DNA of 64,000 bases from Clostridia bacterium. GTDB taxonomy: Bacteria > Bacillota > Clostridia > Saccharofermentanales > Saccharofermentanaceae. The notes beneath the pieces are model-generated. The model was not told the origin of the DNA. It ran no database searches and worked only from the letters and a program-made list of their open reading frames with translations. A program made the translations under genes and the position numbers. Location: NCBI GenBank assembly GCA_024403775.1, contig JAKSRE010000002.1, forward strand, positions 62,001-126,000, written 5' to 3'. Shown piece by piece: positions 2,922-15,802 of this stretch; the first letter of the stretch is position 1, and each line of letters begins with the position of its first letter.

Positions 2922-5900
2922 ATGTTCTTAGAAGTAAGAAGAGTTTTATCTGAGAAGAAAGAACCTTATGCAGTTGAAGCAAAGGGAATTCTCAAGGACG
3001 TTAAGTCAGATTTGGGTATTAATACTATTACTAAGGTAAGAGTTATTAACCGCTATGACGTATCAGGATTAACTGATGAAGAATACAATGAGGCTAGAAC
3101 AGTTGTATTTTCAGAGCCACCTGTTGATGATGTTTATGATGAGACAGTTGACTTAAATGATAGTTGTTATGTTCTTGGTATTGAGGCTCTTCCTGGACAG
3201 TATGACCAGCGTGCTGATTCTGCTGCACAGTGTATTCAGTTCCTCACACAGAAGGAGAGACCTATCTGTAAGACAGCTAAGTTAGTAGTTTTCTATGGTA
3301 GTGTAACTGAAGAAGATAAAACTAAGATTAAGAATTATCTTATTAACCCAGTTGAGTGTAGAGAGGCTTCTTTTGAAAAGCCTGAGACTCTTCAGGACAA
3401 GTATGATATTCCAACAGAAGTTAAGACAGTTGATGGATTTATCGCTATGAGCGATGATGAGCTTAAGGCTCTTCGTGCAAGCATGGGTCTTGCAATGAGT
3501 GATGCAGATGTTAAGTTTACACAGGACTATTTTGCATCTATTAAGCGTGATCCAACTATTACTGAAATCAGAGTTCTCGATACTTACTGGTCAGATCACT
3601 GCCGTCATACAACATTTCTTACTGAGCTTACAGATGTTGTTTTTGAGGGTGACGATGAGCTTACAAAGGAAATCAAAGAGACATACGCTGATTATAAGAA
3701 TGTAAGAGAAGAAGTATATGGAGAGAGAATCTCCAAAAAGCACATCTGCCTTATGGATTTGGCTACAATGGCAATGCGTAAGCTTAAGAAAGATGGTAAG
3801 CTTCAGGATCTCGATGAGTCAGAAGAGATTAATGCTTGTTCTATTAAGATTAAGATTCAGGTTGATGGTAAGGATGAAGATTATATCCTTATGTTCAAGA
3901 ATGAGACACATAACCACCCAACTGAGATTGAGCCATTTGGTGGTGCTGCAACATGTCTTGGTGGTGCTATCAGAGATCCACTTTCTGGTAGATCATATGT
4001 TTACCAGGCAATGCGTGTAACAGGTGCTGGAGATCCAACAGTTCCTGTATCTATGACACTTAAGGGTAAGCTCTCACAGAAGAAGATTGTTAGAACAGCA
4101 GCAGCTGGTTACAGTTCATACGGTAATCAGATTGGTCTTGCTACAGGTCAGGTAGAAGAAGTTTACCATCCAGGTTATGTAGCTAAGCGTATGGAGATTG
4201 GTGCTGTTATTGGTGCTGCTCCTGCTTCAAATATCGTTCGTGAGCGTCCAATTCCAGGTGATATCGTTGTATTACTTGGTGGTAGAACAGGTCGTGACGG
4301 TATCGGTGGTGCAACAGGTTCATCCAAGGCTCATGATGAGAAGTCAGTTCTTACTTGTGGTGCTGAGGTTCAGAAGGGTAATCCTCCTACAGAGCGTAAG
4401 ATTCAGAGATTGTTCAGAAATCCAGATGTTACAAAGCTTATCGTAAGATGTAATGACTTTGGTGCAGGTGGTGTATCTGTAGCAATTGGTGAGCTTGCTG
4501 ATGGTCTTGAGATTAATCTTGACTTGGTTCCTAAGAAGTATGAAGGTCTTGATGGTACTGAAATTGCTATCTCAGAGTCTCAGGAGAGAATGGCTTGTGT
4601 TATTCACAAGGAAGATAAGGAGAAGTTCCTTTCATATGCTGATAAGGAAAACCTTGAGGCTATCGTTGTTGCTGAAGTAACTGAAGAGCCACAGATGAAG
4701 ATGGTATGGAATGGTAAGGTTATCGTTGATCTTCCAAGAAGCTTCATCGATACAAATGGTGCCAGCCAGTTTACAAAGGTAGTAGTTAAGCCTTCAGATG
4801 TTGAAAATAAGTATATCGATTCAGTTAATGCTGAATATAATGAGAATAGCTTTGCTGATTCTCTTAAGGGTGTTCTTGGAACACTTCAGGGCTGTTGTCA
4901 GAGAGGTCTTATCCAAAGATTTGACTCAACAATCGGTGCAGCTTCTGTAATCATGCCATATGGTGGTGAGTATCAGCTCTCACCAGAGGAAGGTATGGCT
5001 GCAAAGATTCCTCTTGATAAGGGATATACAGCAGACTGTTCTGTTATGACTTATGGTTTTGATCCATACTTTACAGAGTGGAATCCATATGCTGGTGCCT
5101 ACCACTCAGTAGTTGAGAGCTTGCTTAAGCTCTTGTGTATGGGTGTTGATCCACTTACAGCTAGACTTACATTCCAGGAATACTTTGAGAGAATGAGTTC
5201 TGATGAAGCTTGGGGTAAGCCACTTTCAGCACTTCTCGGTGCATATAAGGCACAGCTTGATTTTGGTACAGCATCAATTGGTGGTAAGGACTCAATGAGT
5301 GGTACATTTAATGATATCCACGTTCCACCAACACTTGTAAGCTTTGCAGTAGGTATGTCAAAGTCAGACAAGATTGTTACTGCTTCTGTATCAGCAAGTA
5401 ATCAGAAGCTTTATGCAATTAAGATTAACCGCAATGAGAATGGTTACTATAAGAAGGATCATGCTCTTCGTGTAATTAAGGCTGTTAAGGAAATCATTTC
5501 TAGAGGTCAGCTTAGAAATGCAGCAGTTGTTAAGTCAGCTGGTATTGCAGCGAGAGTTGCTCAGATGTGTTTTGGTAACAAGTTAGGATTTGAGTTTGCT
5601 ACAGATGTAAATATGGAGAAGCTCTTTAATAAGTCACTTGGTACTATCATTGTTGCTGTTGATAATGACGGTAATGCAGTTGATAAGATTGAGATGGCTG
5701 GTGGATTCTATCTTGGTAAGACAAATAATTCTGGTAAGTTTACTTATGGTGATATGGAAATCAGTGTAGAGGATGCTCTTGCATCATATGAAGGTAAGCT
5801 TGAGCCAATTTTTGCTACAAAGGCAACAGAAGGTACAATGCCTGTAGATATTGATGTATTTACTACAGATAAGACATTTAAGGCTTCTAATGTTCTTACT

Positions 5901-6710: not shown

Positions 6711-7565
6711 ATGTACAGAGACGAAGTAAAAAATATAATGAATACATTCGAGATTCTGCCCGAGCAAAAGTTCGGACAGAATTTCTTATGTGACGAGAAA
6801 ATTATAGATTCAATTATTGAGTGCTCAGGAATTCATGAAGGTTCTACTGTTCTGGAGATAGGTCCTGGTATTGGTGCCTTAACATCCAGAATACAGGAGA
6901 TTACTTCTGATTATACCTGTGTAGAAATAGATAAGAGACTGGCATCCTTTCTTCGCGAAAATGTTATTAAAGAGAATGTTAAAATAATAGATAGTGATTT
7001 TCTTGATCTTCAATATGATGAATATAAAAGAGATAAAAGATATGACTACATTATCAGTAATATTCCTTATTATGTAATGACGCCAATAATGAAGAAACTG
7101 ATAATTGATAATTTTGACTGTAAACGTATGACATTTATGGTTGAAGAAGCAGCAGTAAATAGAATAATTGCAAGTCCTGGAAATAAGAATTATGGGCCGT
7201 TAGCTGTACTTTGCAGTAATTTCGGAATTGTTAATAAAGAGTTTAATGTTCCGTCTGATGCGTTTATTCCACGCCCACATACCTTATCTAGTGTTATTAC
7301 AATCGATAATTCAGTAAATATTGTAAACAAGTTTGTAAACGACAGTCAGCTCTATTTACAGTTTGTTGACGCGTGTTTCTCACAAAGACGCAAGAAATTG
7401 AGCAATTCTTTGTCATCTTTTTTGAGTTCTGGAAAGCTCGGAAAGCCAGTAACCACGGGGGATTTGGCCGATTTGCTTAGTAGTATGAATATACCTTCAG
7501 ATGTGCGTTCTGAGGCATTAACACCAGAGGATTTTCATTTAATTTTTCTTAATTTATTAGTCTAA
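6711..7565 (+). CDS. rsmA: 16S rRNA (A1518/A1519-N6)-dimethyltransferase RsmA/KsgA
   Basis: 284 aa. It dimethylates two adjacent adenines in the 3' hairpin of 16S rRNA during small-subunit maturation, using SAM. Visible: FGQNFL (21-26), the SAM loop EIGPGIG (49-55), the acidic VEIDKR segment (71-76) and the catalytic NIPYY (117-121, usually NLPYY). The start at 6711 lies 6 bases after the purL stop without a clear Shine-Dalgarno. A second Met at codon 10 (6738) is possible, but the 6711 start gives an N-terminal length closer to the family norm. Probably translated from the purL message. Confidence 0.93.
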   Translation: MYRDEVKNIMNTFEILPEQKFGQNFLCDEKIIDSIIECSGIHEGSTVLEIGPGIGALTSRIQEITSDYTCVEIDKRLASFLRENVIKENVKIIDSDFLDLQYDEYKRDKRYDYIISNIPYYVMTPIMKKLIIDNFDCKRMTFMVEEAAVNRIIASPGNKNYGPLAVLCSNFGIVNKEFNVPSDAFIPRPHTLSSVITIDNSVNIVNKFVNDSQLYLQFVDACFSQRRKKLSNSLSSFLSSGKLGKPVTTGDLADLLSSMNIPSDVRSEALTPEDFHLIFLNLLV

Positions 7566-7592
7566 ATTCATTTACACCGCCACAACCACTTT

Positions 7593-7631
7593 AATATTTC
7601 TTATTTATATAATCCAAACATAAGAAATATT
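7593..7631. repeat. 12-bp perfect inverted repeat just before the CAP gene RBS
   Basis: AATATTTCTTAT at 7593-7604 is exactly complementary to ATAAGAAATATT at 7620-7631, with a 15-base loop that contains TATAAT (7608-7613). The repeat ends four bases before the GAGGTGG ribosome binding site. With no U-tract it is not a standard terminator. It could be an operator, a 5' mRNA stability hairpin, or a structure that modulates ribosome access. Confidence 0.6.
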
Positions 7632-7646
7632 TACGAGGTGGCAGCT

Positions 7647-9041
7647 ATGAAGAAGATAACTCGATCAATTACATCGTTAATCGTATCATTATTAGTTATT
7701 TCTCTTTTCGGTAATATGGTAGTTTTAGCATCAAGCAATAATAATGGTGTTGAAGCTTTTGTTGCTCGTCTCTATAACATCTGTCTTGAGAGAGATTACG
7801 ATCAGGCAGGTCTTGAAAGCTGGAGTGAACTTCTTGTTTCTGGTGCCACCGATGGTGGTTCTGTTGCAAGAGGTTTTTTTACTTCTGATGAGTATGTTAA
7901 TGTTGTAGCTGATGATGAGGCTCAGTATCTTACAAAGTTATACAGAGTATTCTTCAACAGAGAGCCAGATGAGGGTGGATTCAGTGGTTGGATCGTTAAG
8001 CTTGATGGTTCTATGGCAGCAAGAAACAGTGTAATGAATGGTTTTATAAGTTCTGCAGAGTGGACAAATACTTGTGAAGCATACGGTATCTTAAGTGGTG
8101 CTGAGAATGTAAATAATGCAGCAACAAGTGGTACAGATGGAATAAGCGTTTTTGTTAACAGCTTGTACGAGGGTTGTCTTGGCCGTGCTGCTGATGAGGG
8201 TGGTTTTATTGCTTGGTCACAGAAACTTTCTAATCGTGAGATTACTGGTCGTGATGCAGCTTATGGTTTCTTCTATAGTGCTGAGTTTACAAATAAGTAC
8301 GCTACACTTTCTACTTCAGAAAAGGTAGAGACTTTCTATCAGGTTTTCTTTAACAGAGCAGCTGATGTAGATGGACTTAATTACTGGTGTGATGTTATTA
8401 ATAGTGGCGCTTCATTTGATGTAATGTTTGATGGTTTCTCAGCTTCTCAGGAGTTCATGAAGAAGTGTTCTGATTGTGGTATCCTTTATTCTATGGATGA
8501 GGCTACAGCTCCAGCTCCACAGGAAGAAGTTAGTGTTCCAGTAGTTGAAGTAGTAGAGCCTGTGGCAGTAGTTGTTAATCAGTGTTCTAATCGTTTCAAT
8601 AGTAATGCTGTTGTTACTATTACTGTTGACTTAGGTAATGGTGAGACTAGAGAGGTTACTGGTTACTTCGATTATGAAGCAGAGGAAGAGATTCTTGATT
8701 GTCTTAATGCAGATCGTGAATTCGCTGGTTTAGAGCCATTGGTTATGACTGATGATTTCCGTGATGCAGCTAGACTTAGAGCAGTAGAACTTGTTTGTTC
8801 TCCTTCACACACAAGACCTAATGGTGAGTCTTGCTTCACAGCAATCCCTTGGAATAATTGTGGTGGTGAGAATATCGCAGCTGGTTTTGAGACTGGTGCT
8901 GATTTTAATTATCAGTGGTACAACTCAACAAAGCACAGAGAGAATATGCTTAATGAGAATTATAAGTTCGTAGGTATTGGTGTATTCGTTTGTGAAGGTT
9001 CTGAATATTATGAGTATGGTGCTGAGTCTTTCTCAGGCTGA
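7647..9041 (+). CDS. Secreted DUF4214-CAP (SCP-like) domain protein
   Basis: 464 aa. Residues 1-29 form a signal peptide (MKKITR, then a hydrophobic core ending VVLAS). Next come two pairs of DUF4214-type units, recognised by the repeated pattern LYxxxLxRxxDxxGxxxW followed by GFxxSxE (about residues 35-160 and 170-285). A Pro/Val-rich linker precedes a C-terminal CAP domain (about 340-460) with HTRPNG (His388), GENIAAG and HRENML, the usual CAP cavity residues. DUF4214 occurs in secreted and surface proteins of anaerobes and CAP domains in extracellular proteins of varied function. The actual role is unknown. The start was set by GAGGTGG at 7635-7641; the open frame extends three codons further to a GTG that overlaps this RBS. 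Confidence 0.85.
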   Translation: MKKITRSITSLIVSLLVISLFGNMVVLASSNNNGVEAFVARLYNICLERDYDQAGLESWSELLVSGATDGGSVARGFFTSDEYVNVVADDEAQYLTKLYRVFFNREPDEGGFSGWIVKLDGSMAARNSVMNGFISSAEWTNTCEAYGILSGAENVNNAATSGTDGISVFVNSLYEGCLGRAADEGGFIAWSQKLSNREITGRDAAYGFFYSAEFTNKYATLSTSEKVETFYQVFFNRAADVDGLNYWCDVINSGASFDVMFDGFSASQEFMKKCSDCGILYSMDEATAPAPQEEVSVPVVEVVEPVAVVVNQCSNRFNSNAVVTITVDLGNGETREVTGYFDYEAEEEILDCLNADREFAGLEPLVMTDDFRDAARLRAVELVCSPSHTRPNGESCFTAIPWNNCGGENIAAGFETGADFNYQWYNSTKHRENMLNENYKFVGIGVFVCEGSEYYEYGAESFSG

Positions 9042-9772: not shown

Positions 9773-12140
9773 ATTGATGGCTCCAGCCGGTAATCTTGAC
9801 ATTTTAAAAGCTGCTGTTGATTATGGTGCAGATGCAGTTTATTTGGGAGTTGGCGCATTTAATGCAAGAATGAATGCAGATAATTTTGGATTTGAAGAAC
9901 TTCAGGAAGGCATCAGATATGCAAAACTGAGAAGTTCCAAAGTTTATCTTACCTTAAATACAATTGTTAATTCTTTTGAGATGGAAGAAGCTGTTGTTAC
10001 TGCTGCTAATGCTTATGATCTTGGAATTGATGGAATTATCATTCAGGACCTTGGACTTGCTATGGCTATTCATAAGCAGTATCCTAATATTCCGCTTATA
10101 GCTAGTACACAGATGAATATTTTTTCTGTATCTGAGTATTCAAAACTTAAGGAATTAGGTTTTAGCAGAATTGTATTACCACGTGAATTATCTATGGATG
10201 AGATTAGAAGACGCAATAAAGCAGCTTCAAGACTTAAGCTTCAGACTGAAGTATTTGCACATGGTGCAATTTGTGTTTGCTGCTCTGGATTGTGTCTTTT
10301 CAGTAGTATGAATAAGAGTGGTTCAAGAAGTGGAAACAGAGGTCTTTGTGCTCAGCCATGTCGTCAGGAATATAAGCTTTCTAAGCAGAATACTGAGATT
10401 AAATCAGGTCATCTTTTATCTCTAAAGGATAGAAGCATAATTGAATATTTAAGTGACATTATCGAATCTGGCACTACTTCAATTAAGATTGAAGGAAGAA
10501 TGAGAGATATAAATTATGTTAAGAGTACAGTTAAGGCCTATAGAACTTTAATTGATGCTTACTATGAAGGAAGCCTCAATGATTCAACAGTTAAATCTGT
10601 CATGAATGATCTTCTGGTTAATTTTAATCGTGGTGGAAAATTTACTTCACAGTATTTAAGCGGTAATAAGCAGAAGGATTTCTTATCTGGTGAATATGTT
10701 GGTAAATTTGGTTTGAAACTTGGAATAATCAGATCTACTGATGCCAAGAAAGGTACAGTAACTTTTACTTTCAATGAGAAGTTACCACTTCCTTCAAGAG
10801 GCGATTATTTATCAGTAAGAGATGGTTCTAAGGAAATCTGTTCTTTCCCAATCGGTAAAGTTCATGAGATGCCAAAGGCACTTGCTGTTAAAGGTCTTCA
10901 CCCAGACATGATTGTTAAACTTCAGGAAAATATGTCTGTATACTTAATGGGACATGAGACTGAATTTGATAAGAAGGATTATCGTAAAACACATATTAAT
11001 CTTTCTATTGATAGTACTGATACTACTATTACAGCAAGTGCACGAGTAGTTAGCGGAATGCATAAAGAGGTGTTTGCTGAGTTTGAGTTAGATCTCGAAA
11101 ATGATTTCGAAGGTAATCCACTTACTAATGAGCGTGTTGAAGCTCAGATGCGCAAATTTGGTGATACTCCATTTGTTGTTGATGAGGTGTTCATAGTATC
11201 TGAGACTGGTTTTGCCTGTAGAATTAGTACTATAAATGAACTTAGAAGAGGATTAGTAGATAATCTCATTTCTGAGATTATGTTTAATGATGAACACTAT
11301 CTAAATAATGATTTTGAAGATTTCTTTGATTTTGATGCTGAACCAGAAAGTAATCAGGATGATGAAGATTTATTTGTAGATGAAGGAAGTATAACCAATA
11401 TGGTTTACTATCCATCTTATAAGATGATCGGTTCTGACATGAATTTGGACTATGACTGGTATGCTTTTAATATTTATGATTTGTGTGTAAAAGCCTTTAG
11501 AGAAAGCATAATTAAGTTCATTAACGATAATGAGAAGAAGTTAGTAGTTGTATTGCCTGATTTCTATCATGATTTTGTAAAAAGAGCCTTTAATGATGCA
11601 ATTATTGAATTAAAGGAAAGATTAGGAAGTTCCTTTGTTGCTTATATTGATTCCTGCATCGTAAATAGCGGTAATGACAAAGATTTTGATGAGAATAATG
11701 AACTTATGCATTTTGTATCTGGTGGAACCAATATTTATAATAATGATACTGCTGATATTGCTATTTCAATGAATGATGGTCTCTATCCTTCATATGAGCT
11801 TCAGACTGATGAGGCTCTTGAAGCTTTACTTAAATGTAAGCAGAAAGAAGGCAAATATGTTCTTCTTCATAAGGAAGGAAGAATCCCTTGGATGCAGTCA
11901 GACTTCTGTTCAATTGGTGCTCATCAGGATAAGTGCAGATCTTGTTTTGACAGTGTATATTACACACTTAAGGCATCAGATGATTTGAAGTCAGAACCAA
12001 CAGAACTTTATGTGTTCTCCAGACCAATTGATTGTTCTTCATCTATCTGGGGAGATGCAAAAAATAAATTTACTGACGACGATTCTTATACATTGTCAGA
12101 TGCTGGATTTAACGTAATTAATGTAGATGTTATTGTCTAA
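9759..12140 (+). CDS. U32 family peptidase / RlhA-like 23S rRNA hydroxylation protein
   Basis: 793 aa. The N-terminal ELMAPAGNLDILKAAVDYGADAVYLG-type start is the hallmark of the U32 (collagenase-like) family, followed by the signature region near 165-205 with its Cys cluster (VCCSGLCLFS, GLCAQPCRQEY). A DUF3656-like middle and a second half carrying CSIGAHQDKCRSC near the C-terminus make it a two-part long-form member. In E. coli the long-form relative RlhA (YdcP) is required for hydroxylation of a 23S rRNA cytidine, and others act as hydroxylases with prephenate-derived cofactor. True protease activity is doubtful. It overlaps zapA at its start and the dut leader at its end. Confidence 0.85.
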   Translation: MNKIELMAPAGNLDILKAAVDYGADAVYLGVGAFNARMNADNFGFEELQEGIRYAKLRSSKVYLTLNTIVNSFEMEEAVVTAANAYDLGIDGIIIQDLGLAMAIHKQYPNIPLIASTQMNIFSVSEYSKLKELGFSRIVLPRELSMDEIRRRNKAASRLKLQTEVFAHGAICVCCSGLCLFSSMNKSGSRSGNRGLCAQPCRQEYKLSKQNTEIKSGHLLSLKDRSIIEYLSDIIESGTTSIKIEGRMRDINYVKSTVKAYRTLIDAYYEGSLNDSTVKSVMNDLLVNFNRGGKFTSQYLSGNKQKDFLSGEYVGKFGLKLGIIRSTDAKKGTVTFTFNEKLPLPSRGDYLSVRDGSKEICSFPIGKVHEMPKALAVKGLHPDMIVKLQENMSVYLMGHETEFDKKDYRKTHINLSIDSTDTTITASARVVSGMHKEVFAEFELDLENDFEGNPLTNERVEAQMRKFGDTPFVVDEVFIVSETGFACRISTINELRRGLVDNLISEIMFNDEHYLNNDFEDFFDFDAEPESNQDDEDLFVDEGSITNMVYYPSYKMIGSDMNLDYDWYAFNIYDLCVKAFRESIIKFINDNEKKLVVVLPDFYHDFVKRAFNDAIIELKERLGSSFVAYIDSCIVNSGNDKDFDENNELMHFVSGGTNIYNNDTADIAISMNDGLYPSYELQTDEALEALLKCKQKEGKYVLLHKEGRIPWMQSDFCSIGAHQDKCRSCFDSVYYTLKASDDLKSEPTELYVFSRPIDCSSSIWGDAKNKFTDDDSYTLSDAGFNVINVDVIV

Positions 12141-12153
12141 TCAGGAGGATAAA

Positions 12154-12657
12154 ATGGACCAGGAAAAGGTAATTCTTAAGATAGAAAAATGCAGAGAAGA
12201 AGCAGTTATTCCTACATTTGCTAATTTTGGTGATGCCGGAATGGATTTATACAGCTGTAAAGATGTTCTTATTGAACCTGGTAGAAGTGCATTAATTCCA
12301 ATTGGAATTAAAATGGCCATACCAGTTGGTTATGAAGTTCAGATTCGTCCAAGAAGTGGTATATCATTAAATACTCCTATTAGAATTCCTAATGCGCCAG
12401 GAACAATTGATTCTGGCTACAGGGATGAGATTAATGTCATATTGTATAACTGTTCATTTATGAATGAATCTATTGATGGTGAACCTTTGACACTTAAGAC
12501 CAAAGGCAATAAGCACGGTAATTATTTAATCAAAAAGGGTGACCGAGTTGCTCAGATGGTTTTTGCAAAGGTAACTTATCCTGAAATCGAAGTTGTTGCT
12601 TCTGTTCAGGAAGAAGGCGTAAATCGTGGTGGTGGATTTGGATCATCTGGTATCTGA
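12154..12657 (+). CDS. dut: dUTP diphosphatase
   Basis: 167 aa. It hydrolyses dUTP to dUMP and PPi, keeping uracil out of DNA. All five trimeric dUTPase motifs are present in order: DAGMDLYS, RPRSGIS, PGTIDSGYRDEI, GDRVAQM and the C-terminal RGGGFGSSG. The start is the ATG preceded by AGGAGG (12142-12147). The open frame continues nine codons upstream into the end of the U32 peptidase gene, but that extension has no RBS. Active trimer expected in the cytosol. Confidence 0.96.
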   Translation: MDQEKVILKIEKCREEAVIPTFANFGDAGMDLYSCKDVLIEPGRSALIPIGIKMAIPVGYEVQIRPRSGISLNTPIRIPNAPGTIDSGYRDEINVILYNCSFMNESIDGEPLTLKTKGNKHGNYLIKKGDRVAQMVFAKVTYPEIEVVASVQEEGVNRGGGFGSSGI

Positions 12658-12704: not shown

Positions 12705-13685
12705 ATGGTTGAGATATTTAAGTCAATAAATGAGCGTGAGATGAATGGTAAGCAGCTTCATAAGGTCAAGAAGACTGAAGGTATTTCTGACGACTGCTGG
12801 ATTGATATGTATTCTCCAACAGAGCAGGAAATTGCGGAAGTTGTTAATACTCTTGGTATCCCTGATGAATTTGTAAGAGACTCCTTGGATGAAGAAGAGA
12901 GACCACGTATCGATTATGATGAGGATACTGATTCTATCCTGGTAATTGTTGACGTACCATATACAAGACGAGAGCAGTCTATTTCCAAGTATGAGACTAC
13001 TCCACTTGGTATTATTATTACACGTAAAAATGTTGTAACCGTATCTCTTCATAAGACAGCAGTATTAGACCCATTTAAGAATAATCGAGTTAAAGATTTA
13101 GTTTTAAATTATCGTACAAGATTTGTTCTTTTAGTCCTTTTGAATGTTGCGAAAGACTATTTAAGACTTCTCAGATATATTGACAAGAATCTTGATTTGA
13201 CCGCTTCAAATCTTCAAAAGGGAATTAAGAATGAGGATCTTTACGAGATAATGGAAATTAGTAAAACACTCGTATATTTTACAACTTCTCTTAAATCGGA
13301 TGAGGCAGTAATTGATAAATTAATCAGAGGAAGAAGACTTAAGAAATACAATGAAGATGAGGAACTTCTTGATGATGTAATGATTGAATTCAGACAGGCT
13401 CATGAGATGTCTGAGATTTATACAAATATTGTTAATAATACTCAGGAAGCTTATTCTTCAATCATTAACAATAATATGAATGTTGTGATGAAGGTATTGG
13501 CTGCTGCGACTATCATAATGGAAATTCCTAATATTTTTACAAGCTTTTTTGGTCAGAACTGTCCAATGCCTTGGGATGAGGGATTTAAGTCCAATCCATT
13601 GCCTTTTATATGTATAACAGTTTTTTGTATTGCCACTATCGTTGTATCAACGTGGTTTATGAAGCGAAAGGGATTGCTAAAGTAA
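12705..13685 (+). CDS. CorA-family divalent-cation transporter with variant GQN motif
   Basis: 326 aa. A long charged N-terminal cytoplasmic domain is followed by a helix and two C-terminal transmembrane segments (about 263-283 and 294-316), as in CorA Mg2+ channels. The loop after the first segment reads FFGQNCPMPW, where CorA proteins have Y-G-M-N; Met is replaced by Gln. GMN is the selectivity signature at the pore mouth, so altered ion preference or regulation is possible. The RBS is GAGAGG. The alpha/beta-hydrolase-like gene begins at the next base after the stop, indicating one transcript. Confidence 0.85.
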   Translation: MVEIFKSINEREMNGKQLHKVKKTEGISDDCWIDMYSPTEQEIAEVVNTLGIPDEFVRDSLDEEERPRIDYDEDTDSILVIVDVPYTRREQSISKYETTPLGIIITRKNVVTVSLHKTAVLDPFKNNRVKDLVLNYRTRFVLLVLLNVAKDYLRLLRYIDKNLDLTASNLQKGIKNEDLYEIMEISKTLVYFTTSLKSDEAVIDKLIRGRRLKKYNEDEELLDDVMIEFRQAHEMSEIYTNIVNNTQEAYSSIINNNMNVVMKVLAAATIIMEIPNIFTSFFGQNCPMPWDEGFKSNPLPFICITVFCIATIVVSTWFMKRKGLLK

Positions 13686-14714
13686 ATGAGCAACAGTTTT
13701 TATTCAGGTAAACAGAATAAGCATTTCAGAAGAGGAAATAATAGCTTTATCTTTCAGGCAGCACTTGTTTTAAGTATAATTGCGGTAATTCTTGTAAGTA
13801 TGATTGTACTTACTATTTTCTCTTCCAATAATTTGATGGGAATTGAAGGAGAACCAGTATCAAATGTACCTTCAAACGTTCTTCCTTCATATTCAACATG
13901 TTCATTTCAGTCTTATGATGGTCAGACCAATCTTTCTGGATGGTTTTTTAAGTGCGATAATCCAGTATCGACAGTTATATTAGTACACGATGTTGGAGAT
14001 AACAGACTCCAGTTTGGCGTAAATATGATTGATATGGTTGAGCAGCTTCTTGATAACCACTATAATGTTTTCCTTTTCGATCAGCGCAATACAGGTGACT
14101 CAGAGGGTGATATTGTTGGCTATGGTTATCTTGAATGGCAGGATGTTCTTGGAGCAATTGCCCAGGTAAAAAAGATTTCTGTTACCACAAATGTTATTCT
14201 TTATGGGGTAGGAACTGGAGTTACTTCTTCGCTATTAGCTTATGATATGCTTCCACCAGTAGATTGTAAGGAAAGTGATTTGAATCGATATAGTAATGAT
14301 ATCATCGCTTTAGGTTTTAATCAGAGTTATATTGTTGGATTCATTTTCGATTCTCCTGCAAAGAATTCTGACGATTATATTTCTCCTGTTGTAGCTCAGA
14401 CGGAGTTTTTGGGAAGTATTACAAAGAATACTGTTCCTTATGCCATCAGAATCTCATCTGGAGTAGATTCTTCTCTGAATATAGCTTCTGAGATTTCTAG
14501 ACTACCTATACCTGTTTGTATTATTTATGGTGGACATGATTCTTTTATTGGTGCTGACAAAATAAATCAGCTTGTTACGGAAAGAAACAGAATCAATGAA
14601 CATCTTACTTCATCACTTTTGGTTCCTGGAGCAGGATATCTTGAATCCTATAATTCAGACAGAGAATTGTATATTGAAACGGTAATCAATTATCTTAACA
14701 AGTTCTTTGACTGA
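13686..14714 (+). CDS. Membrane-anchored alpha/beta-hydrolase-fold protein lacking catalytic Ser and His
   Basis: 342 aa. One N-terminal transmembrane anchor (about 22-46) precedes an alpha/beta-hydrolase domain on the outer face (DQRNTGDSEG at 132-141, WQDVLGAI at 151-158). In active relatives the nucleophile elbow is G-x-S-x-G; here it is GVGTG (174-178), so Gly176 replaces the Ser. The acid appears intact as Asp285 in YGGHD. The usual GAGH histidine site reads GAGY (Tyr318). Two of three triad residues are therefore missing, and the protein is probably not a classical esterase or peptidase. It lies flush against the CorA-like gene. A binding or regulatory role is speculation. Confidence 0.8.
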   Translation: MSNSFYSGKQNKHFRRGNNSFIFQAALVLSIIAVILVSMIVLTIFSSNNLMGIEGEPVSNVPSNVLPSYSTCSFQSYDGQTNLSGWFFKCDNPVSTVILVHDVGDNRLQFGVNMIDMVEQLLDNHYNVFLFDQRNTGDSEGDIVGYGYLEWQDVLGAIAQVKKISVTTNVILYGVGTGVTSSLLAYDMLPPVDCKESDLNRYSNDIIALGFNQSYIVGFIFDSPAKNSDDYISPVVAQTEFLGSITKNTVPYAIRISSGVDSSLNIASEISRLPIPVCIIYGGHDSFIGADKINQLVTERNRINEHLTSSLLVPGAGYLESYNSDRELYIETVINYLNKFFD

Positions 14715-14779: not shown

Positions 14780-15802
14780 ATGGATAGCAATGATTTGAAT
14801 AGAAAAGATGTATATATTCTTGGAATTGAGTCTTCATGTGATGAGACTGCTGTGTCTGTTGTAAAAAATGGAAGGGAAGTTCTTAGTAACGAGATTGCTT
14901 CTCAGGCTGATTTCCATGAACAGTTTGGTGGTGTAGTACCAGAACTCGCGTCCAGAATGCATATTGAAGCAGTATATCCTTGTATTGTAAATGGACTAAA
15001 AAAAGCGAATCTTAGTTTTAGAGATATTGATGCAGTTGCTGTTACATATGGACCAGGACTTGTTGGCGCATTGCTTGTAGGTTTGTCTGCTGCAAAGGGT
15101 GTATGTGAAGCTACTGGTCTTCCACTTATCGGCGTTAATCATATGCATGGCCATATTGCAGCAAATTACATTACTCACAAAGATTTAGAGCCACCTTTTA
15201 TTTGTCTTTGTGTCAGTGGTGGACATAGTCAGATTATCCTGGTAAAAGACTATCTTGATTTTGAACTTCTTGGTACAACAAGAGATGATGCAGCTGGTGA
15301 AGCAATTGATAAGATTGCAAGAGTAATCGGTCTTGGTTATCCAGGTGGACCAAAGATGGATAAGGCAGCTCAAGGTGGCAATGTTACTAGATATACATTT
15401 GCAAAAACGCATATGAATGATACTCTCGATTTCTCATTCAGTGGAATTAAGACATCTGCATTAAATCAGATAAATAAACTTAAAATGCAGGGAGAAGATA
15501 TTGATATCTGCGATTTTGCTGCTTCCTACCAGCAGCATATTGCTAATGAACTGGTTAGAAATACTATTATTGCTGCAAAATCCAAAGGCATTCGTAAGAT
15601 TTGTATTGCGGGTGGAGTTAGTGCAAATTCATTCCTTCGCAATGAATTGAAGAAGCAGGGTAAGAAATTTGATTTGTATTTCCCTGAAATGAAATATTGT
15701 ACAGATAATGCTGCCATGATTGCGTCTATTGGTTATTTTGAATATGTGAAGGGAACAAGGCATGGACTGGATTTGAATGCCTGTCCTTCATTGGAATTGT
15801 AA
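14780..15802 (+). CDS. tsaD: tRNA N6-adenosine threonylcarbamoyltransferase TsaD
   Basis: 340 aa, standard family length. TsaD (Gcp/YgjD) transfers threonylcarbamoyl from TC-AMP to A37 of ANN-decoding tRNAs, with TsaB and TsaE. Visible: GIESSCDETA at the N-terminus, the metal-binding HMHGH, the ASNA-type CVSGGHSQI strand-loop, GYPGGPKMD, and the late CIAGGVSANSFLR and DNAAMIA segments. All expected metal ligands appear present. The gene runs into smpB, whose ATG lies 19 bases after the stop. Confidence 0.97.
   Translation: MDSNDLNRKDVYILGIESSCDETAVSVVKNGREVLSNEIASQADFHEQFGGVVPELASRMHIEAVYPCIVNGLKKANLSFRDIDAVAVTYGPGLVGALLVGLSAAKGVCEATGLPLIGVNHMHGHIAANYITHKDLEPPFICLCVSGGHSQIILVKDYLDFELLGTTRDDAAGEAIDKIARVIGLGYPGGPKMDKAAQGGNVTRYTFAKTHMNDTLDFSFSGIKTSALNQINKLKMQGEDIDICDFAASYQQHIANELVRNTIIAAKSKGIRKICIAGGVSANSFLRNELKKQGKKFDLYFPEMKYCTDNAAMIASIGYFEYVKGTRHGLDLNACPSLEL

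Follow-up and report, generated by a model that had tools for sequence, protein, structure and literature searches.

A probable family of catalytically dead, membrane-anchored alpha/beta-hydrolases kept for binding in an order of Clostridia

Pseudoenzymes, in which conserved catalytic motifs are absent, can take on binding, scaffolding or allosteric roles (PMC10211241), and the word hydrolase does not occur in the main text of that review. A dead alpha/beta-hydrolase fold is, as a kind, already known: the cited passages describe NDRG3 as having a replaced triad and a blocked pocket, and neuroligins as further non-catalytic alpha/beta-hydrolase folds (PMC7022630, PMC5943944). In literature searches on pseudoenzymes with a hydrolase fold, on the nucleophile elbow and on Saccharofermentans, we found no description of the family reported here. 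The window that we analysed is a stretch of 64,000 nucleotides, numbered from its first letter, within a 2.82 Mb assembly of a bacterium of the Saccharofermentanales (hereafter the order).

The gene, its fold and its membrane anchor

The gene spans positions 13686..14714 of the plus strand and encodes 342 aa in an intact frame. Its first base directly follows the stop codon of a CorA-like transporter gene (12705..13685, plus strand; PF01544, 7.4e-53), an optional neighbour, which agrees with the placement directly behind that gene in the initial annotation. A frequent neighbour at 12127..12657 (plus strand), on the far side from tsaD, is taken by us to be a dUTPase gene, and the stable downstream neighbour at 14780..15802 (plus strand) is presumably tsaD.

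A serine alpha/beta-hydrolase combines the fold and an acid with a Ser, Cys or Asp nucleophile in GxNuxG and a catalytic His; the window protein has the fold and the acid, but lacks both the nucleophile and the His. Its nucleophile elbow reads GVGTG (residues 174-178; 14205..14219, plus strand), with Gly176, encoded by GGA at 14211-14213, in place of Ser. Tyr318 (TAT, 14637..14639, plus strand), the last residue of GAGY (residues 315-318), replaces the catalytic His, and the acid Asp285 (GAT, 14538..14540, plus strand) is kept at the end of GGHD (residues 282-285). All three residues and their codons are exactly as first annotated. A Ser elsewhere in the elbow, which would have spoken against that reading, was looked for and the elbow of the window protein contains none, Gly176 being followed by Thr177. 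His101 (13986..13988, plus strand), the first residue of the oxyanion-loop motif, is conserved in the order and in triad-bearing relatives, the motif being HD in the window protein versus HG in most of those relatives.

In a Pfam search the window protein matched PF12146 at 18.2 bits, below the gathering cut-off of 27, and the triad-bearing relative L212 scored 48.4 bits in the same comparison. Some members of the order pass the cut-off of a related Pfam family (L118, PF12697, 34.4 versus 26.3), and the NCBIfam matches of the window protein and four relatives all lie far under the curated cut-offs. The Ndr profile gave no match among the Pfam hits of the window protein at E<=1, a search in which HMMER filters can drop weak matches. 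An AlphaFold2 model, built from an alignment of 27 order members in which use of the open frame makes some rows begin with a residue other than Met, reached a mean pLDDT of 90.9 and a pTM of 0.87. It consists of a long N-terminal helix (residues 20-51) followed by the strands and helices of an alpha/beta-hydrolase. Gly176 sits between strand 170-175 and helix 177-188, and this arrangement places it at the nucleophile elbow. The nearest solved fold is that of the Pyrococcus furiosus esterase Pf2001 (5g59; Foldseek E 2.9e-17), to which the model aligns with a Z of 28.1 and an rmsd of 2.7 over 269 residues; our literature search returned one paper that mentions Pf2001 and none on Pf2001 itself. 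Pf2001 is also the only PDB sequence matched by the family profile at E<=1e-10. Taken alone, the window protein matched it weakly (E 0.004), followed by ferritin chains that we regard as chance matches, and the triad-bearing L212 matched Pf2001 and 12 others, several of them named esterases.

The N-terminal helix (13743..13838, plus strand), with a hydrophobic core at residues 27-45, a hydropathy of 3.09 and a K/R-rich tail before it, is read as a single membrane anchor. Residues, model and N-terminal helix together support the initial description of an alpha/beta-hydrolase fold that is tethered to the membrane and lacks a Ser-His-Asp triad. With the first Met of each open frame taken as the start, so that some starts are wrong, 126 of 141 order proteins have more K/R residues ahead of the anchor than behind it (equal numbers in 7, fewer ahead of it in 8), and by a crude count 13 of the 141 have no stretch above a hydropathy of 1.6. 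The K/R-rich side of a membrane helix stays inside (the positive-inside rule), and the excess on the N-terminal side of the anchor therefore suggests that the N-terminus lies inside and that the hydrolase domain is extracytoplasmic.

Triad loss, distribution and selection across the order

Gly occupies column 176 in 141/141 distinct proteins of the order, a few of them fragments, from four families. Proteins were counted as distinct by comparing the C-terminal 300 residues of their open frames, and 11 loci outside the order that passed the score limit had been taken out by name beforehand. All four Gly codons are in use (GGA 41, GGT 48, GGC 43, GGG 9). Of the 141, 123 have Asp at position 285, where 2 have a gap; at position 318 there are 97 with Tyr, 22 with His, 12 with another residue and 10 with a gap. 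By family, f2 keeps His in 20/25 and Asp in 22/25, f3 has mixed His/Asp states, and f4 has Asp in 2/7 and no aligned His (gaps in 6/7). Random alternation between active and inactive residues among homologs, which would have told against the initial reading, was not seen; Gly176, Asp285 and Tyr318 are all present in 80/80 homolog loci. That reading had looked to Lachnospiraceae for the close homologs, a placement contradicted by the record titles, since none of the 80 names this family and the genomes are titled Saccharofermentans, Mageeibacillus, Ruminococcaceae, Oscillospiraceae, Clostridiales, Clostridia and similar.

The 54 order rows group as a single clade in a tree of 87 rows, with an SH-aLRT of 100 obtained with the quick method only. 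The 32 tree rows outside the order carry Ser in 31 cases and the whole triad in 25. The triad-bearing group ('canon') was labelled after the motifs were seen; it includes L265, a distant paralogue with Ser that was found in an order genome and sits on a very long branch, and this row is excluded from the 32 outside rows. Four full-triad outside loci (L175, L180, L181 and L183) were left out of the tree, as were repeat fetches of the same places. The minimum number of changes on the tree is 2 for the nucleophile state, the second being in family f81, and 6 for the His state. One Gly-bearing order clade together with Ser in nearly all outside rows argues for a single, early loss of the nucleophile within the order, with His and Asp apparently eroded later and unevenly.

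Two groups outside the order show other states. L225 (genome G364, family f81), whose branch is long, also has Gly in its elbow and is either a second loss or a misplaced relative; the second homolog of the same genome, L282, has Ser there. Homologs of f28, another family of the class (L210, L218, L220-L223), keep Ser, have Tyr for His in 6/6 and keep the acid poorly, a pattern that reads as a second, different route of triad erosion.

A profile search recovered the gene in 161/188 order genomes, and in 97/106 of those with completeness of 90% or more and contamination of 5% or less. tsaD was looked for in 18 of the 27 order genomes without the gene, and 13 of these 18 lacked a tsaD match at E<=1e-60 as well, a sign that the locus is absent from those 13 assemblies. 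In a further gene-less genome, G816, the contig ends at tsaD. In four f4 genomes (G037, G040, G049 and G759) dUTPase and tsaD lie within ~100 bases of each other, too close for the gene to fit between them, and elsewhere in these genomes the only match at E<=1e-8 is one distant Ser-bearing paralogue in G040; the gene is thus not indispensable across the whole order. At E<=1e-20, a search of 391 genomes of the class matched in 36, of which 22 are outside the order with far weaker scores, and a search of 299 genomes of the phylum matched in 14 besides the window's own, again with far weaker scores. The genus genome search listed no internal stop in any matching row. Three genomes (G834, G053 and G737) have one stop listed within the matched span, yet their open frames run to 339-347 aa. 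The one clear break noted is in G805 (L251 / L268; apparently the same genome as L080), where decay or an assembly error has split the gene between two frames.

We estimated selection by NG86 dN/dS in 25 non-overlapping pairs drawn only from the 80 homolog loci, 3 of which were unusable for this gene. The median omega over the 22 usable pairs was 0.041 (range 0.020-0.070), against medians in the same pairs of 0.043 for tsaD (23 pairs), 0.048 for dUTPase (21) and 0.032 for smpB (21). The 15 pairs with CorA at neither locus gave 0.028-0.056 and the 5 pairs with CorA at both gave 0.020-0.070. The gene is under strong purifying selection, with the constraint expected of a working gene, and this selection goes together with an absent catalytic motif, the combination that defines a pseudoenzyme.

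Conserved positions fall into two sets. Those common to the order (42 rows) and the triad-bearing relatives (25) are His101, Asp132, Arg134, Gly137, Ser139, Gly147, Glu150, Asp153, Asp222 and Pro224. Those conserved in the order only include Tyr148, Pro251, Ala253, Arg255, Glu299, Arg300, Arg302 and Thr308, and six of these eight fall in model helices 249-257 and 290-307, taken here as putative cap and pocket-side helices. Such order-only conservation suggests remodelling rather than decay.

Genomic neighbours and competing explanations

All 80 homolog loci have tsaD on the same strand, no more than 1.5 kb away. In f2, f3 and f4 the two genes are that close in 43 of the 44 loci where tsaD was seen, and in all 44 tsaD is on the other strand; the gene has there kept its place beside tsaD with a strand opposite to f1, as if inverted in place. 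Counting loci with tsaD and 2.5 kb of flank, dUTPase is beside the gene in 69/74 homolog loci, 8/14 in f2, 5/9 in f3 and 5/5 in f4. tsaD, smpB and dUTPase are housekeeping genes; with such neighbours, and with the gene able to lie on the strand opposite to tsaD, gene context gives little hint of function.

CorA was seen at 39/80 homolog loci, 35/57 f1, 1/25 f2, 9/17 f3 and 0/7 f4 loci, some flanks being cut. Where a dUTPase or U32 gene was also seen, the counts are 35/76, 30/52, 1/16, 7/8 and 0/7, respectively. When 39 whole genomes were searched with the window CorA as query (E<=1e-15), CorA was found in 9/23 f1, 0/6 f2, 2/2 f3 and 7/8 f4 genomes. The 14 f1 genus genomes (G002, G004-G007, G013, G017, G019, G022, G025, G026, G031, G032 and G034) and the six f2 genomes without a CorA match at that threshold all keep the gene; completeness is 90% or higher for nine of the 14, with 97% or more in five of them, and 80-89% for the remaining five. 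The gene therefore does not need CorA, which is no obligatory companion, and the tie to CorA suggested in the initial annotation is weak and not supported. The pairing is nevertheless old. CorA lies in the fetched flank of 5/7 triad-bearing f55 loci, within 30 bases of the homolog in three, ~390 bases away in L219 and, in L215, in two pieces of which the nearer is 158 bases away, and this neighbourhood is therefore probably older than the loss of Ser. The L215 pieces (5082-5450 and 7321-7974) are separated by 1.9 kb, as an insertion into the gene would leave them.

The window CorA has GQN (13551-13559) in place of GMN as its filter motif. Among distinct CorAs at the locus, GQN occurs at 35/35 homolog loci, 11/11 in f1, 6/9 in f3 and 1/1 in f2, the remaining three f3 sequences having GMN, as do the CorAs beside triad-bearing f55 homologs. 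The CorA family motif is given as GxN in the cited passage (PMC6972854), and our literature search found no paper linking CorA with GQN.

The residues, the fold, the single clade with Gly throughout, the purifying selection and the presence of the gene without detectable CorA, all computational observations, point to what is probably a family of membrane-anchored alpha/beta-hydrolases that is inherited vertically, is catalytically dead and is kept for binding or scaffolding. Its ancestor, an anchored serine hydrolase, would have exchanged Ser for Gly a single time, ahead of the split between the sampled families of the order, and His and Asp would then have drifted. The outward-facing domain would be unable to act as a serine hydrolase. 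A remodelled pocket or cap surface may bind a small ligand or an envelope protein, and the gene may be kept for that, giving it a role at the outer face of the membrane in the manner of NDRG and neuroligins. As His and Asp survive in most f2 proteins, residual chemistry is possible there.

It is unlikely, although less so than the other alternatives, that the protein is still an enzyme, acting through a shifted nucleophile at Thr/Ser177 or through other pocket chemistry such as the f2 His-Asp pair. Position 177 is indeed Thr or Ser in 129/141 order proteins, and the conservation of His101, Asp132, Arg134, Ser139, Glu150 and Asp153 is close to that in triad-bearing relatives. However, Thr already stands beside the nucleophile in 5/26 triad-bearing rows and in 6/6 f28 rows (GFSTG); being present in Ser-bearing relatives, Thr177 is not a replacement gained upon the loss of Ser. 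Nor is it constant in the order, where position 177 is Ala or Cys in 12/141 proteins, and we judge an elbow nucleophile at Thr/Ser177 unlikely. The wider form of this explanation is weakened by Tyr for His at every one of the 80 homolog loci and by the inconstancy of both His and Asp across the order. It is also improbable that the protein, itself inactive, forms a dimer with an active hydrolase paralogue and so activates or stabilises it: pseudoenzymes can act through allosteric regulation (cited passages of PMC10211241) and some genus genomes hold distant Ser-bearing paralogues (L132-L141), but many gene-bearing genomes have no other match at E<=0.001, a cutoff that would miss distant paralogues.

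A role as regulator or assembly factor of the adjoining CorA-like channel would account for the position of the gene in the window and for the frequency and age of the pairing described above, but it too has a low probability, and the genome-wide co-occurrence search speaks against it. Selection on the gene is equally strong in locus pairs without CorA, and CorA is nearly absent from the f2 and f4 loci. In the f3 loci with CorA that were read (e.g. L111, L114 and L125) the two genes are convergent and so not co-transcribed, the f4 genomes G037 and G040 have CorA and lack the gene, and the hydrolase domain, if outside as predicted, would lie away from the cytoplasmic domain of CorA. A decaying pseudogene is scarcely credible. 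The split frame of G805 and the single stops listed in G834, G053 and G737 are what such decay might look like, but an omega of ~0.04 and the absence of internal stops from the genus genome rows rule out recent decay outside these four exceptions.

Comparison with known systems

Returning to the reading of a dead, anchored hydrolase kept for binding, its closest relatives in sequence are the triad-bearing anchored hydrolases of other Bacillota (f55, f65 and the phylum rows; Hydrolase_4 / Abhydrolase_1). The two share the fold, a common motif order (HG/HD, DxRxxGxSxG, GxxE..D) and a sequence kinship that extends into the N-terminal anchor region. Against these relatives, the order has Ser changed to Gly at the elbow and the genus has His changed to Tyr; there are also extra residues at ~192-215 and 299-300, besides the residues conserved in the order only. 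f28 is the sister group on the tree (SH-aLRT 82) and likewise has Tyr at the His position, but it differs in the Ser at its elbow and in having neither tsaD nor CorA within the fetched flanks of its six loci.

Living relatives thus show Ser-His-Asp, Ser-Tyr, Gly-His-Asp, Gly-Tyr-Asp and Gly with neither partner. A broader proposal, which we put forward tentatively and hold to be somewhat doubtful, is that a bacterial order made an anchored surface hydrolase into a near-universal non-catalytic envelope receptor or scaffold, with the steps preserved among its relatives. If this is true, the relatives form a natural series from enzyme to binding protein, and the triad-bearing relatives together with the partly eroded intermediates offer a direct test of what a hydrolase gains on losing its nucleophile. 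The family is also a likely annotation trap, as such genes may be labelled alpha/beta hydrolase.

The non-catalytic examples in the cited passages are eukaryotic, whereas the window family is bacterial, order-wide and constrained like tsaD. In NDRG proteins and neuroligins, as described in those passages (PMC7022630, PMC5943944), a triad that is replaced by non-reactive residues or is non-functional stands in a kept fold and the proteins work by binding, as proposed here; the likeness drawn here is one of fold type, and the window family differs further in being anchored by a single N-terminal helix.
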